Part shown: positions 7,698 to 29,591 of the stretch, one piece after another
How the letters are laid out: the number at the start of each line of letters is the position of its first letter
Numbering within the stretch: position 1 is the stretch's first letter
Program-made: the position numbers and the translations under genes
From: an uncultured Bacteroidia bacterium
Lineage (GTDB): Bacteria; Bacteroidota; Bacteroidia; Bacteroidales; ML635J-15
Length of the DNA stretch: 33,913 nucleotides
Direction: 5' to 3'
Assembly (NCBI GenBank): GCA_902762455.1
Contig: CACWOG010000010.1
Span: 1-33,913 of the forward strand
Notes under the pieces: model-generated
What the model was told of the DNA's origin: nothing
Database searches by the model: none
Seen by the model: only the letters and a program-made list of their open reading frames with translations

Positions 7698-8015
7698 TTA
7701 TCTTTCCGAAAGGATTTTATTTATTGTCTTGTCATCCATCCGGTTGTTCCAAAGCAATACTATAATGATTTTCGTCCCCTTAATATAATAGAAAACCCTG
7801 ACATGTTTTGAGTGAAGTACACGCAAAATTTTGCCATTGTATTTATGTGTCGTTTCGGTAGTTCCTAATTCTGGAAAATCCAAAAGCAAATCAATTTGTG
7901 AAATAATATTGTCATATACTTGCAATGTAACATTCTGACCATGTATGTCAAGGACATATCCAATAATTGAAGCTAATTCGTTTTCAGCCTCTTTTAGCCA
8001 TTGAATCTCCCTCAT
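7698..8015 (-). CDS. RelE/ParE-family toxin
   Basis: The 105-residue protein has the compact layout of the RelE/ParE superfamily. An N-terminal helix pair comes first (IQWLKEAENELASIIGYVLD.., then a helix with DNIISQIDLLLDFPELG). The beta-sheet core follows: KILRVLHSKHVRVFYYIKG and KIIIVLLWNNRMD. The FPELG turn and the late VFYYI strand are typical. ParE members poison DNA gyrase and RelE members cut mRNA on the ribosome; which applies here cannot be read by eye, though the fold pattern is closer to ParE. Its start codon overlaps the antitoxin stop (ATGA), as in a type II operon. A hairpin follows the stop. Confidence 0.85.
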   Translation of the reverse strand: MREIQWLKEAENELASIIGYVLDIHGQNVTLQVYDNIISQIDLLLDFPELGTTETTHKYNGKILRVLHSKHVRVFYYIKGTKIIIVLLWNNRMDDKTINKILSER

Positions 8016-8269
8016 GCCATCATAGCTTTGATGCGAGCCTTAACTTCTTCGTGCGATACAAATTCGGCAGTGCCGTCAGCAATGCATTTCATTCGCTCGT
8101 TGAGAAGCTTTTCTACTTCTGCTTCGCTGTAGCAACATGGACTTGTAACTTGTTTTTTTTCGCTTTGTCCAACCAGTTCCATAGCAAAGCACTTCACTTT
8201 GCGCGTTAGTTCTTCAGGCGAAAAATGTCCATAATCAGGCAGGTTGATGTTTATAGAAACTCCATTCAT
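8012..8269 (-). CDS. Antitoxin partner of the RelE/ParE toxin
   Basis: This 85-residue protein precedes the toxin and overlaps it by four bases, the classic type II toxin-antitoxin order. I do not recognise a named DNA-binding fold at the N-terminus (MNGVSININLPDYGHFSPEE). The C-terminus (CIADGTAEFVSHEEVKARIKAM) has the amphipathic, acidic character of antitoxin tails that wrap the toxin; HEEV.AR is often seen there. A -7 promoter element lies at 8292-8299. The pair probably represses its own promoter, but no clear operator palindrome is visible. Confidence 0.75.
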   Translation of the reverse strand: MNGVSININLPDYGHFSPEELTRKVKCFAMELVGQSEKKQVTSPCCYSEAEVEKLLNERMKCIADGTAEFVSHEEVKARIKAMMA

Positions 8270-18586: not shown

Positions 18587-18647
18587 TATGTCTATTCCGA
18601 TTTTATTTCGCTGACCTTATAAAACTTGCTAGTCGGGAAATTTATAT

Positions 18648-18655
18648 TACTTTTG
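18648..18655 (+). promoter_or_regulatory. Promoter of the SHOCT gene
   Basis: TACTTTTG is preceded by TTG at 18626-18628 with a 19-base spacer, the standard Bacteroidota spacing. It lies 19 bases before the ATG at 18675. Confidence 0.7.
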
Positions 18656-24841: not shown

Positions 24842-25498
24842 CTATTCCGTTTTTTCTCCGAAAGCCAAGTCGCCAGCATCGCCAATTCCGGGGACGATGT
24901 ACGATTTCACGGTAAGTTCGTCATCTATGGCACCTGTCCATACCGTAACCATACTTTCGGGTAATACCTTTTCAATATATTCAAGTCCTTCGCGACTAGC
25001 AATCACTGCTGCCACATGTACATGCTTTGGCGTTCCGTATTCAAGCAATCCTTTGAATGCCAGTTCAATGCTACTGCCACTTGCAAGCATTGGGTCGCAA
25101 ATTATTACATTTCTGTCCTCAATGGATGGAGATGTGATGTAGTCGATTTTCACCTCGAACTTTCCGTTTTTCTTGTATTTGCGGTAACCGGCTATGAATG
25201 CGCTGTCGGCGTGGTCGAAGAAGTTGAGAAAACCCTTGTACATTGGTAGTCCTGCACGGAGAATTGTTGCCAATATGGGCTGTTCCTTTAGCGTAGGTAC
25301 TGTTGCAATTCCAAGAGGCGTGATAACATCCTCGTCGGCAAACGGAAGCCGTTTACTGATTTCGTATGCCATAACTTCGCCTATACGTGTGAGATTGTTG
25401 CGGAAACGCAACCTTTCCTGTTGAATTTGAACATCCCTTACTTCCGACAAAAACTGGTCGAGCAGACTGCCCTTGCCACCTAAATTGATAATCTTCAT
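24842..25498 (-). CDS. upp: Uracil phosphoribosyltransferase
   Basis: Upp salvages uracil by joining it to PRPP, giving UMP. The 218-residue protein has the PRPP-binding loop VIICDPMLASGSS and the C-terminal uracil-recognition segment PGIGDAGDLAFG typical of Upp. ILRAGLPMYKGF is the other conserved PRPP-side block. Length is in the usual range. The upstream gap of about 450 bases contains a candidate small RNA on the other strand. No TAnnTTTG box is seen directly before the start. Confidence 0.95.
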   Translation of the reverse strand: MKIINLGGKGSLLDQFLSEVRDVQIQQERLRFRNNLTRIGEVMAYEISKRLPFADEDVITPLGIATVPTLKEQPILATILRAGLPMYKGFLNFFDHADSAFIAGYRKYKKNGKFEVKIDYITSPSIEDRNVIICDPMLASGSSIELAFKGLLEYGTPKHVHVAAVIASREGLEYIEKVLPESMVTVWTGAIDDELTVKSYIVPGIGDAGDLAFGEKTE

Positions 25499-25715: not shown

Positions 25716-25745
25716 TTGCAGAAATGTGTATAATTAATATCTTTG
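25716..25745 (+). promoter_or_regulatory. Consensus promoter of the candidate small RNA
   Basis: TTG at 25716-25718 and TATCTTTG at 25738-25745 are separated by 19 bases, the standard Bacteroidota -33/-7 arrangement. No open frame follows. Confidence 0.65.
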
Positions 25746-25751
25746 CAATCG

Positions 25752-25852
25752 CAATTAGATAAGCGAAACACTATCTAATCGCCTAAAATTGCCCTCATAT
25801 TATCAAACTTTATTTTAGCCTCCGTTAGAATCCCAAGCTTTCGGAGGTTTTT
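25752..25852 (+). ncRNA. Candidate small RNA of about 100 nt
   Basis: Transcription from the promoter at 25716-25745 should start near 25752. The predicted RNA begins with a hairpin, ATTAGATA pairing with TATCTAAT around an AGCGAAACAC-type loop (about 25754-25779). A single-stranded AU-rich middle follows. It ends in a terminator hairpin, CCTCCG (25819-25824) with CGGAGG (25842-25847), followed by six or more T residues. No ORF with a start codon fits. I recognise no known RNA family; 6S RNA would be longer. Start and end are estimates. Confidence 0.5.
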
Positions 25853-25867
25853 TGTCGTACTATAAAA

Positions 25868-25898
25868 AGGGTGGTATAAATGATATTTACACCACCCT
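25868..25898 (-). terminator. Terminator of the vWA/glycohydrolase operon
   Basis: AGGGTGGT (25868-25875) pairs with ACCACCCT (25891-25898), and TAAAT/ATTTA extends the stem. On the minus strand it is followed by TTTTTATAG. It lies 53 bases past the vWA stop. Confidence 0.8.
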
Positions 25899-25950: not shown

Positions 25951-27093
25951 TTACTCAATCCAGAAACTCTTAGGCAGATATACATTATCAAGTTTCTGCG
26001 CTTCCTTGAACAATAGAGCAATTTCTTCATCCATAAATCCTGCGATTCCACAGCCTATGCGCGTTACGAGAAACTTGGATTCGGGATGCTGTTTTGCAAA
26101 CTCGATGAACTTGTGTACATACTGCGCAATTTCTCTCAGACTGACATTTGTCGTCGGTATTGCAAAACTATGCCCTTGCAAACCAAAATTCTGACCATTG
26201 ACTGCTCCAAAATTCCTGACAGCAAACAGTGCTGCACCACCATTGTGATTTCCTGTAACATCGCTACCGAATACGAAAATTTCGTTGTCGGCAAGGCTCG
26301 TGATGCGGTCGGGTGTAATTCTTTTGCTATTAATCTCTGGACTTTCCCTTTGATAATAGTTGGAAGACATTTCCCTTACCACAGAATTAATTTCCGATTC
26401 CGATAAAGATTCACGCTGCGAATGGAAATTGTGCAGTCTGCTGAAAAAGTTCATCCTTGCCTTCCTCTCATAATTCCAACTGTCGGACATTCCCTGCGAA
26501 TCGTGTGAAAAGCGATGTACATTGTCGAACGACATCCGGCTTGCCACGGCTTCCACATCGTGGTCGGCACCCATATAGGCGAAAGTCCAGCCTTGCTCCT
26601 TGAGTTCGTCAACCATTTTCTTCACCTGCTGTCCGCTGTATTCCTTCGAAGCATTTTCAAGTCCGTCGGTAATGACGGTAACTATTGCCGTCGCATTTGG
26701 CACATTGGCAATGTCGCCACGCAACTTGCTGATAGAAATTCCCATCGCATCGTAAAGCGGTGTGCAACAGCAAGGACGATAATCGCGTGAGGTAAGTTGC
26801 TTGACCTCGGCAACTGGCACATTATCATACACGAGGCGTTTTTCGCAATCGCAGAAAACCATAAGCGATACAAAATGCTCCTGCGTTTCGGCATACTTTT
26901 CCTGTGCTGCACGGATTCCTCCTACTGTTTCATTGAACCCAGATATTGCCGCTTCAGCAATAGACGACATAGAACCGCTCTTGTCGAGGATTACGAGGTT
27001 GTAAATCTTGTCCTTAGAGGACTTTTCATTGTTTTCTCTTTTCATAGACTGGCTATTTTCGGCGCCGTCCTGATTTTTTCCAAAAATTTTCAT
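25951..27093 (-). CDS. von Willebrand A protein with shared C-terminal macro-like domain
   Basis: The 380-residue protein has two domains. Residues 30-220 are a vWA domain with a complete metal-ion site: DKSGS (37-41), Thr111 in CTPLYDA and Asp143 in ITDG. Such domains bind partner proteins through the metal. Residues 263-380 form a second domain (EIFVFGSDVTGNHNGGAA to VTRIGCGIAGF and LPKSF). It is about two thirds identical to the end of the adjacent glycohydrolase gene. I infer a Rossmann- or macro-like nucleotide-binding domain from its FGSN, GGAA..A..FGA and AIPT blocks; this is not proven. No signal peptide is seen, so it is cytoplasmic. The gene lies 59 bases behind the glycohydrolase gene and is probably in its operon. 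Confidence 0.85.
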   Translation of the reverse strand: MKIFGKNQDGAENSQSMKRENNEKSSKDKIYNLVILDKSGSMSSIAEAAISGFNETVGGIRAAQEKYAETQEHFVSLMVFCDCEKRLVYDNVPVAEVKQLTSRDYRPCCCTPLYDAMGISISKLRGDIANVPNATAIVTVITDGLENASKEYSGQQVKKMVDELKEQGWTFAYMGADHDVEAVASRMSFDNVHRFSHDSQGMSDSWNYERKARMNFFSRLHNFHSQRESLSESEINSVVREMSSNYYQRESPEINSKRITPDRITSLADNEIFVFGSDVTGNHNGGAALFAVRNFGAVNGQNFGLQGHSFAIPTTNVSLREIAQYVHKFIEFAKQHPESKFLVTRIGCGIAGFMDEEIALLFKEAQKLDNVYLPKSFWIE

Positions 27094-27152: not shown

Positions 27153-28391
27153 TCAGAAACTCTTTGGCAGCCACACGTTTTCCAAATTGTGTGCCTCCAA
27201 GAACAGTGGTGCAATTTCCTCATCGGTGAAACCAGCGATTCCACAGCCTATGCGTGTTACGAGGAACTTGTATTCGGGATGTTGTTTTGCAAATTCGATG
27301 AACTCATCAACATACGGCTTTATGGTTTCCACTCCGCCCTGCATTGTAGGGATTGCGTAGCTTTGTCCCTGCAAGCCAACGCCTTGTCCCCATACTGCGC
27401 CGAACTTGTCCATAGCTATTCGCGCAGCCCCGCCCATGTGCATTCCAGCAAGGTTGCTTCCGAAGACAAAGATTTCGTTTTCGCCAAGCGAACGGATGAA
27501 ATCTGGAGCAATGCGTTTTTCCATCCTATTTACAATGTACTTAGGATAACCCACTCGGTCGTATAATTGCTCGAGTATTGCCATAAAGTCATCAGGGATA
27601 AGACTTAACATATGAAAAGCAATTTCTTTTGGAATGTCCTTATAATAAGCCTCGGCAATGCCTCCAGTAATGCAAGCGAGGGTGTCGCTGTCTCCGCCAA
27701 GTGACACTGCACGGCGAATTGCATCTTCGTAGCAATCAGAGTCAAGAAACGAAATTATTGCCTGTGGGACAGTTCCTTGACAACTAGATTCCCATTGGTA
27801 TATAGGATGCCAATATTCCCAAGTTTTATGAAGGTCATAACCATAAGTTTTTTCAATATAGTCGCGGATTTCGTCTTTACTTTTTCCGTTTCTTCCCATC
27901 CAAATAGCCGCAGCAGTCGCTTGTGCGCCCTTGATGCCTTCGGGATGGTTGTGGGTTATCTCGGCTGAAATTTTTGCAACTCTCTCGGTTTTTTCCAAGG
28001 TGTCGAACATCCATCCGACAGCACTCACGCGCATTGCCGAACCATTGCCCCACGAGTTGTACGGATGACGACCAGTATCTGATTTGTATGCTATTTCACC
28101 AAATTGCTCGTCATAGTCGTACAGTGATTGCGGATAAAATAGCCAGGAATGGAATCCTCCGCCATAACCTCCCATTGGGCAAGGATAGTTATTTGCTACC
28201 ATAACCATAATATCCTCTAATTTTTGGTGTGTATGTTCGTTGTCTTCAAGCAACCATTTTGCTACGGCAAATGTCATCACCGAGTCGTCGGTGTAGTTGC
28301 TCGACTTCGAAAAAAGCGGGAAATCCGTCCTTTTTGTGTTGTTAAATTCATATACCGAACCTACGGTATCTCCAATAATTGCTCCAATCAT
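27153..28391 (-). CDS. ADP-ribosylglycohydrolase with shared C-terminal macro-like domain
   Basis: The 412-residue protein starts with an ADP-ribosylglycohydrolase (ARH/DraG) domain, which removes ADP-ribose from proteins, nucleic acids or small molecules. The two acidic metal sites are present: TDDS (34-37) and GGDSDT (232-237). Also present are GNGSAMRVSAVGW and THNHPEGIKGAQATA. From residue 298 the protein carries a domain of about 115 residues (EIFVFGSNLAGMHMGGAA, GVGLQGQSYAIPT, VTRIGCGIAGF) that recurs in the neighbouring vWA protein. Fusion to a de-ADP-ribosylating enzyme supports an ADP-ribose-related role for that domain. No -7 box is visible in the word-rich leader. Confidence 0.9.
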   Translation of the reverse strand: MIGAIIGDTVGSVYEFNNTKRTDFPLFSKSSNYTDDSVMTFAVAKWLLEDNEHTHQKLEDIMVMVANNYPCPMGGYGGGFHSWLFYPQSLYDYDEQFGEIAYKSDTGRHPYNSWGNGSAMRVSAVGWMFDTLEKTERVAKISAEITHNHPEGIKGAQATAAAIWMGRNGKSKDEIRDYIEKTYGYDLHKTWEYWHPIYQWESSCQGTVPQAIISFLDSDCYEDAIRRAVSLGGDSDTLACITGGIAEAYYKDIPKEIAFHMLSLIPDDFMAILEQLYDRVGYPKYIVNRMEKRIAPDFIRSLGENEIFVFGSNLAGMHMGGAARIAMDKFGAVWGQGVGLQGQSYAIPTMQGGVETIKPYVDEFIEFAKQHPEYKFLVTRIGCGIAGFTDEEIAPLFLEAHNLENVWLPKSF

Positions 28392-28716: not shown

Positions 28717-29538
28717 CTAAAATTCAATCTTAAATATTCCTTTTTCTTTCATTTCATCATATTTTTCTCTGTTAAAGCGGAATTTTCGGTTTCTGCCTCT
28801 TGTTGCTGAATATTCCACTGCTGGCTCGTGCAAGGCATGTACGGTTTCAAAGTTACAACTATAGCCCGTCATCGGTTTTGTCTCGAACAGGCTGTCGAAA
28901 TCTTTTGTTGTCAGGCACTTGAACGCAGGCTTAGGCGCATCATCCTCCGGTTCTATCAGGTCGAGTATTCCGAGCTGCATCATCTTTTTCTCGAAGTTGC
29001 GGCGGTCGAACTTCACTTCAAGTATTGCCTCGTAGAGCCTTTGCAGGTCGGGCATCGAAAATTCCTCATCCATAAGTTCAAAGCCAATAGGCTCGAAATG
29101 AATCCTTTCCTTCAGCGTGCGCTGTGCAAGCCGCAGAATGTAGTCGTGGTCGAAGGCAAGACGGGGAATATCCTTTATTGGAAACCACTGCGCACATGCG
29201 GCATCGTCGCCACCTTTTACCTCGGCCTGTCTCACCAGAGCGAAGAAAGCTACTGTGACGACCCTTTCACGCGGGTCGCGGTTCACCTCGCTAAAAGTAT
29301 GGAACTGCTCTATCTTTGCAAGCTTAAGTCCTGTTTCCTCCTCGAGTTCACGCCTAGCGCATTGCTCAATTGTCTCGTCAATATTCATGAATCCACCCGG
29401 AAATGCCCAACAACCCTTGCACGGTTCGTTGCCTCTTTCTATAAGCAATATTTTCAAGTCCTTTCCGTCGAACCCGAAAACAACGCAGTCGGCGGTAAGC
29501 GCGGGATGCGGATATTTATATGTATAACCTTGCGACAT
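28717..29538 (-). CDS. Nudix/winged-helix transcriptional regulator (NrtR/AraR type)
   Basis: The 273-residue protein joins an N-terminal Nudix domain to a C-terminal winged helix, the layout of NrtR regulators of NAD metabolism and AraR regulators of arabinose use in Bacteroidota. The Nudix box is intact at 49-71 (G-x5-E-x7-REL-x-EE-x-GL), so it may bind or even hydrolyse ADP-ribose or a related nucleotide. The winged helix covers about 160-273, with LQRLYEAILEVKFDRRNFEK and KKMMQLGILDLIE, a strong family signature. The effector and target genes are not fixed by the sequence. Two matching inverted repeats flank its own promoter, suggesting autoregulation. The gene is divergent from a fatty acid transporter. 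Confidence 0.9.
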   Translation of the reverse strand: MSQGYTYKYPHPALTADCVVFGFDGKDLKILLIERGNEPCKGCWAFPGGFMNIDETIEQCARRELEEETGLKLAKIEQFHTFSEVNRDPRERVVTVAFFALVRQAEVKGGDDAACAQWFPIKDIPRLAFDHDYILRLAQRTLKERIHFEPIGFELMDEEFSMPDLQRLYEAILEVKFDRRNFEKKMMQLGILDLIEPEDDAPKPAFKCLTTKDFDSLFETKPMTGYSCNFETVHALHEPAVEYSATRGRNRKFRFNREKYDEMKEKGIFKIEF

Positions 29539-29541
29539 TTT

Positions 29542-29566
29542 TTTGTGTGTAATTTTTACGCAAAAA
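29542..29566. promoter_or_regulatory. Candidate operator 1 of the Nudix regulator
   Basis: Inverted repeat around GTAA-TTT-TTAC, extended outward with GTGTGTAA on the left and TTACGCAA on the right. It overlaps the -7 box of the regulator's own promoter. A bound protein here would block transcription. Confidence 0.6.
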
Positions 29567-29591
29567 TAGACCTTATTTTTGAACCTACAAA
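29561..29591 (-). promoter_or_regulatory. Promoter of the Nudix regulator gene
   Basis: On the minus strand TTTG (29588-29591) and TATTTTTG (29561-29568) are separated by 19 bases, a textbook Bacteroidota promoter. A second -7-like TATGTTTG lies at 29612-29619, overlapping operator 2, without a matching -33 box. Confidence 0.75.

Follow-up and report, generated by a model that had tools for sequence, protein, structure and literature searches.

Bacteroides species have no obvious homologue of Hfq or ProQ, and their AU-rich small RNAs (sRNAs) have been suggested to need extended seeds (PMC7366714). In B. thetaiotaomicron, the 145-nt sRNA GibS (BTnc035), transcribed from a non-canonical PM2-type promoter, carries its seed at the 5' end, where a highly conserved single-stranded stretch pairs across start codons without Hfq or ProQ (PMC7366714). 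MasB (BTnc201) of the same species, an intergenic and narrowly conserved RNA of ~100 nt that is known to be expressed, pairs with the mRNA of a TPR protein near the start of its coding sequence (PMC10994844). The multicopy FopS family (12-15 per genome), whose conserved single-stranded seed lies ahead of a terminator, has its binding sites around start codons and is itself bound by the RRM protein RbpB (PMC11697453).

The locus described here, between upp and a vWA-like gene in a window of 33,913 nt (the whole stretch of DNA that was analysed), holds a predicted small RNA of comparable design (Table 1). Like GibS, it is intergenic, intrinsically terminated and conserved within one genus, with a long AU-rich, single-stranded conserved stretch as its putative seed; it differs in placing a 5' stem-loop first and in having a canonical promoter (PMC7366714). 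With MasB it shares a length of ~100 nt, narrow conservation, an intergenic position and predicted pairing with a messenger close to where its coding sequence begins, though the candidate target is not a TPR protein mRNA and expression, known for MasB, is here predicted (PMC10994844). The order of conserved single-stranded stretch and terminator also recalls FopS (PMC11697453), but the RNA is single copy per genome and RRM_1 proteins were detected in none of the 13 carriers, two differences that exclude membership of that family. In design, its nearest counterparts are GibS and MasB. In the window, Rfam 15 gave no match at gathering thresholds and only chance-level ones at E up to 10, in agreement with the earlier remark that the RNA resembles no known family, and a literature search with the core and loop sequences returned no match. 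The RNA has its own promoter, an intrinsic terminator, no long ORF, no fixed downstream gene and a conserved unpaired region, of which 28 nt (TGCCCTCATATTATCAAACTTTATTTTA) are identical in 13/13 genomes, as is usual for trans-encoded intergenic sRNAs. What is well supported as a gene thus appears, from sequence comparison and from the published descriptions of GibS and MasB, to represent an uncatalogued small RNA family of a known regulator kind. Uncultured rumen Bacteroidales thereby gain a well-supported, uncatalogued predicted family in a phylum with few characterised sRNAs.

Table 1. Coordinates of the small RNA locus and of neighbouring features in the window
Feature	Position	Strand	Details
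Bacteroidota-type promoter, TTG-N19-TATCTTTG	25716-25745	+	Direct reading; TTG 25716-25718, 19-nt spacer, TATCTTTG 25738-25745; kept in homologues
Predicted small RNA, about 104 nt	25750-25853	+	5' end inferred from promoter; 3' end is the T run
5' stem-loop	25751-25782	+	Arms 25751-25761 / 25772-25782
AU-rich unpaired core AAAAUUGCCCUCAUAUUAUCAAACUUUAUUUUA, 33 nt	25785-25817	+	Invariant; proposed seed; unpaired in predicted folds
Nine-codon frame TTG...TAG (LPSYYQTLF)	25789-25818	+	Open in 13/13 genomes
Intrinsic terminator, apical loop AAUCCCAAG, six T	25818-25853	+	Stem GCCTCCG 25818-25824 / CGGAGGT 25842-25848; loop 25829-25837, same in 13/13 genomes; T run 25848-25853
Terminator of convergent vWA-like gene, distinct from small RNA	25868-25898	-	14-pair hairpin, then TTTTTATA
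upp	24842-25498	-	Start codon at 25498; PF14681 match
vWA-like gene	25951-27093	-	
ADP-ribosylglycohydrolase gene	27153-28391	-	
NUDIX domain protein gene	28717-29538	-	Pfam

The original prediction had described a consensus promoter, about 100 bases without an ORF, an 8-bp 5' hairpin and a strong terminator with a T run, all antiparallel to both neighbours, and each part of this description stands. Both flanking genes lie on the minus strand, upp divergent from and the vWA-like gene convergent with the small RNA, and the plus strand holds no ORF of at least 50 aa within it. The arms of the 5' stem-loop pair at 10/11 positions, 8 of them contiguous, around a 10-nt loop; the core that follows is AU-rich and almost without G; and the terminator stem and T run were located directly (Table 1), the stem-loop scanner having missed this hairpin because its pattern takes loops of 3-8 only. 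Folding of 25747-25857 gave z = -3.0, with 1/200 shuffles as good. The vWA-like gene has a terminator of its own, 53 nt past its stop codon.

The promoter, read directly, recurs in 10/10 different homologues examined; nine have a spacer of 19 nt and the other one of 20 or 17 nt, and the spacer letters differ among homologues though the spacing is kept. An E. coli-type sigma-70 scan does not list it, which fits a promoter of this class. The window contains 4 exact matches to TTG-N19-TAnnTTTG against 0.66 expected, a number that 0/100 shuffles reach, and with four matches present a single one alone is modest evidence. The others lie at 8001-8030 (+), 18626-18655 (+) and 29561-29590 (-). AT-rich intergenic DNA does give such matches, and the locus could in principle be a chance promoter-like site ahead of a stray terminator, with no gene; this reading is barely credible given conservation and covariation over 13 genomes, which refute it unless all homologues are artefacts.

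The strongest evidence for the small RNA gene is comparative and beyond the reach of single-sequence reading. Over the 70 nt spanning core, terminator and T run, 61/70 columns are invariant in 13 genomes. The upp genes of these genomes have just 2/74 fourfold-degenerate sites unchanged and differ pairwise by 0.52 on average at such sites, a contrast that indicates strong selection on the RNA. The 5' stem behaves differently from the core: its letters diverge in most lineages and its pairing is kept, with many double changes (CG/AT, AT/TA, CG/TA, GC/TA). As RNAalifold on a MAFFT alignment recovered the terminator only, the arms of this stem were aligned manually, with re-dealt 3' arms as the control. 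The covariation analysis of homologous gaps that the original prediction had called for found 84/99 cells paired over 9 distinct arm pairs, whereas 0/10,000 re-dealings reached 84 (mean 57, max 82), a control that is lenient with related sequences. Conservation of the hairpins, whose absence would have spoken against the original prediction, thus holds for both, the 5' stem covarying and the terminator being kept across 13 genomes. Taken together, the small RNA gene is well supported by sequence comparison, and its transcript is predicted.

The gene has a narrow distribution. A DNA search detected it in 13/26 genomes of the same GTDB genus (G000-G025), one copy each, and not in the 13 others; it was found in 0/5 genomes representing four further genera of the family, and among 393 sampled genomes of the order Bacteroidales no other genus was positive. 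An exact scan with the 28-nt centre over 84,980 species returned 12 contigs, all from uncultured Bacteroidales/Bacteroidia MAGs and named from water buffalo, yak or red deer, or with RUG (rumen) isolate names, and viral contigs gave no match to the core. A covariance model added no convincing further member: its weak matches elsewhere had E values of 0.03 to 1, the inspected ones proved to be coding sequence or the ends of unrelated genes, and searching with fragments gave no real homologue. In a upp protein tree a branch with 100/99 support separates the 13 carriers from the rest, which marks the small RNA as a core gene of one rumen Bacteroidales clade.

The surroundings of the gene change from genome to genome. 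The divergent neighbour is upp in 11/13 genomes, with its start codon ~250 nt away, and an ssb-like gene in two (G019 and G009), where upp lies ~5 to 7 kb off and the small RNA is equally conserved. On the other side are vWA-like, thioesterase-like, lpxD-like and other genes, mostly convergent; these neighbour names are our reading of the translations, with upp and some window genes checked in Pfam. In G019 (L004/L030) and G009 (L005/L032), a rearrangement swaps ssb for upp upstream of the small RNA, and similarity to the window restarts just before the -33 TTG, placing the breakpoint at the promoter edge. The divergence from upp in 11/13 genomes would suit an element acting in cis on upp from within its divergent promoter region; we regard this as highly improbable, since the copies in G019 and G009 are just as conserved beside ssb, ~5 kb or more from upp, and the stretch separating the RNA from upp does not share the conservation of the RNA.

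The small RNA is not a leader, given that it is followed by different genes in different genomes and in two of them has another upstream neighbour. The nine-codon frame, the only conserved short frame within it, bears on the same question. It starts with TTG in 12 genomes and ATG in 1 and stops with TAG or TAA, so that its two variable positions keep both start and stop, as might be seen if the frame, ending at the terminator, controlled read-through into a downstream gene. Such an attenuator is very unlikely: the downstream genes differ among genomes and are mostly convergent, and in the four genomes with a co-oriented lpxD-like gene a promoter-like sequence (TAACTTTG) intervenes. Moreover, across 13 genomes no synonymous change occurs in the frame, over eight codons, though upp fourfold sites are near saturation, which argues that selection acts on the RNA and not on a peptide; the frame is probably incidental. 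The proposal of a free-standing, non-leader RNA is accordingly supported, as 13 homologues keep promoter, hairpin, core and terminator while the flanking genes change, and the small RNA is, as predicted from sequence, a self-contained transcription unit.

We consider it probable that this free-standing, terminated RNA belongs with GibS and MasB as an sRNA that acts in trans by base pairing, using the core as its seed; we infer that the gene is transcribed, that the core serves as seed, and which mRNA is targeted. The 5' stem-loop, variable in its letters and constant in its pairs, would cap and protect the 5' end, and the terminator hairpin would close the 3' end. Between the two hairpins the invariant AU-rich core would stay single-stranded and block translation of one or more mRNAs by pairing with their initiation regions.

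The best single lead to such a target is the mRNA of an acyltransferase (PF01553) with the N-terminus MFDDIRPY or MAESFDDMRPY, in which at least 20 bases around the start codon and directly beyond it show complementarity to the core. In G024, for which 2.67 of about 3.3 Mb (81%) were covered, this start region gives the best pairing among the -40..+25 windows of 1912 genes. A wobble-tolerant complement search (up to 2 mismatches, 26 genomes) found, besides the RNA gene, the acyltransferase site in six carriers and 0 non-carriers and no other site recurring in more than 2 genomes. A protein-level pattern raised this to 10 carriers (G000, G002, G007, G008, G009, G011, G019, G021, G023, G024) and again 0 non-carriers, with no match in three carriers (G010, G020, G022); six of the ten sites were first found through complementarity, and the lineages are not independent. 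The predicted duplexes range from -19.8 to -25.1 kcal/mol. On codon-preserving randomisation in 8 genomes, pairing was as strong in 0.25-7% of variants per genome, the complementarity being partly driven by the conserved FDD(I/M)RPY motif. The acyltransferase mRNA is a tentative candidate target, suggested by sequence but less likely than not to be the true one. A MarC-like candidate, another top match in G024, was dropped as its site is not conserved. Across the gene starts of G024 there was no overall excess of strong core pairing (84 at -14 kcal/mol or below against 94 +/- 21 for shuffled cores), so a broad regulon is not visible. With the seed defined to the base and a concrete candidate target, the idea is directly testable.

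The main rival to mRNA pairing is a real RNA whose core and AAUCCCAAG loop chiefly bind protein or form a ribonucleoprotein, for example one titrating an RNA-binding regulator. It holds this place because invariance covers the terminator loop too: the 61/70 constant columns go beyond the needs of a seed, and the lack of a pairing excess in G024 points the same way. The length of the invariant run, over 30 nt and so beyond that of most seeds, also counts against pairing. However, no repeated protein-binding motif was seen, the core is unstructured and AU-rich like known Bacteroides seeds, and RRM_1, the one known sRNA-binding class of Bacteroides, was detected in 0/13 carriers; we judge a protein-binding role unlikely. 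It is rather unlikely, too, that a ribonucleoprotein role, or several overlapping target contacts at once, has frozen the 33-nt core and the terminator loop of a regulatory RNA specific to this clade, where RRM sRNA-binding proteins are not detectable. Base pairing with mRNA remains our preferred reading, and the invariant terminator loop may be a second contact site.

RRM_1 (PF00076) was detected in none of the 13 carriers and in all 13 other genomes of the genus. The pattern reflects a single phylogenetic split, and 144/393 sampled Bacteroidales genomes (about 37%) also gave no match, so we do not count the coincidence as evidence of a functional link between presence of the sRNA and absence of RRM_1. 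A clade without detectable RRM_1 is nevertheless a place to study sRNA action lacking that known chaperone class.

Two further observations concern the genes beside the small RNA. The vWA-like protein and the adjoining ADP-ribosylglycohydrolase have a similar C-terminal domain (RITPDRITSLADNEIFVFGSD... and RIAPDFIRSLGENEIFVFGSN..., both ending near ...LPKSF), so that these tandem genes carry the same tail on two different N-terminal domains. Farther along the window, the NUDIX domain protein also has an NrtR-type winged-helix DNA-binding domain and is probably an NAD- or sugar-responsive regulator.
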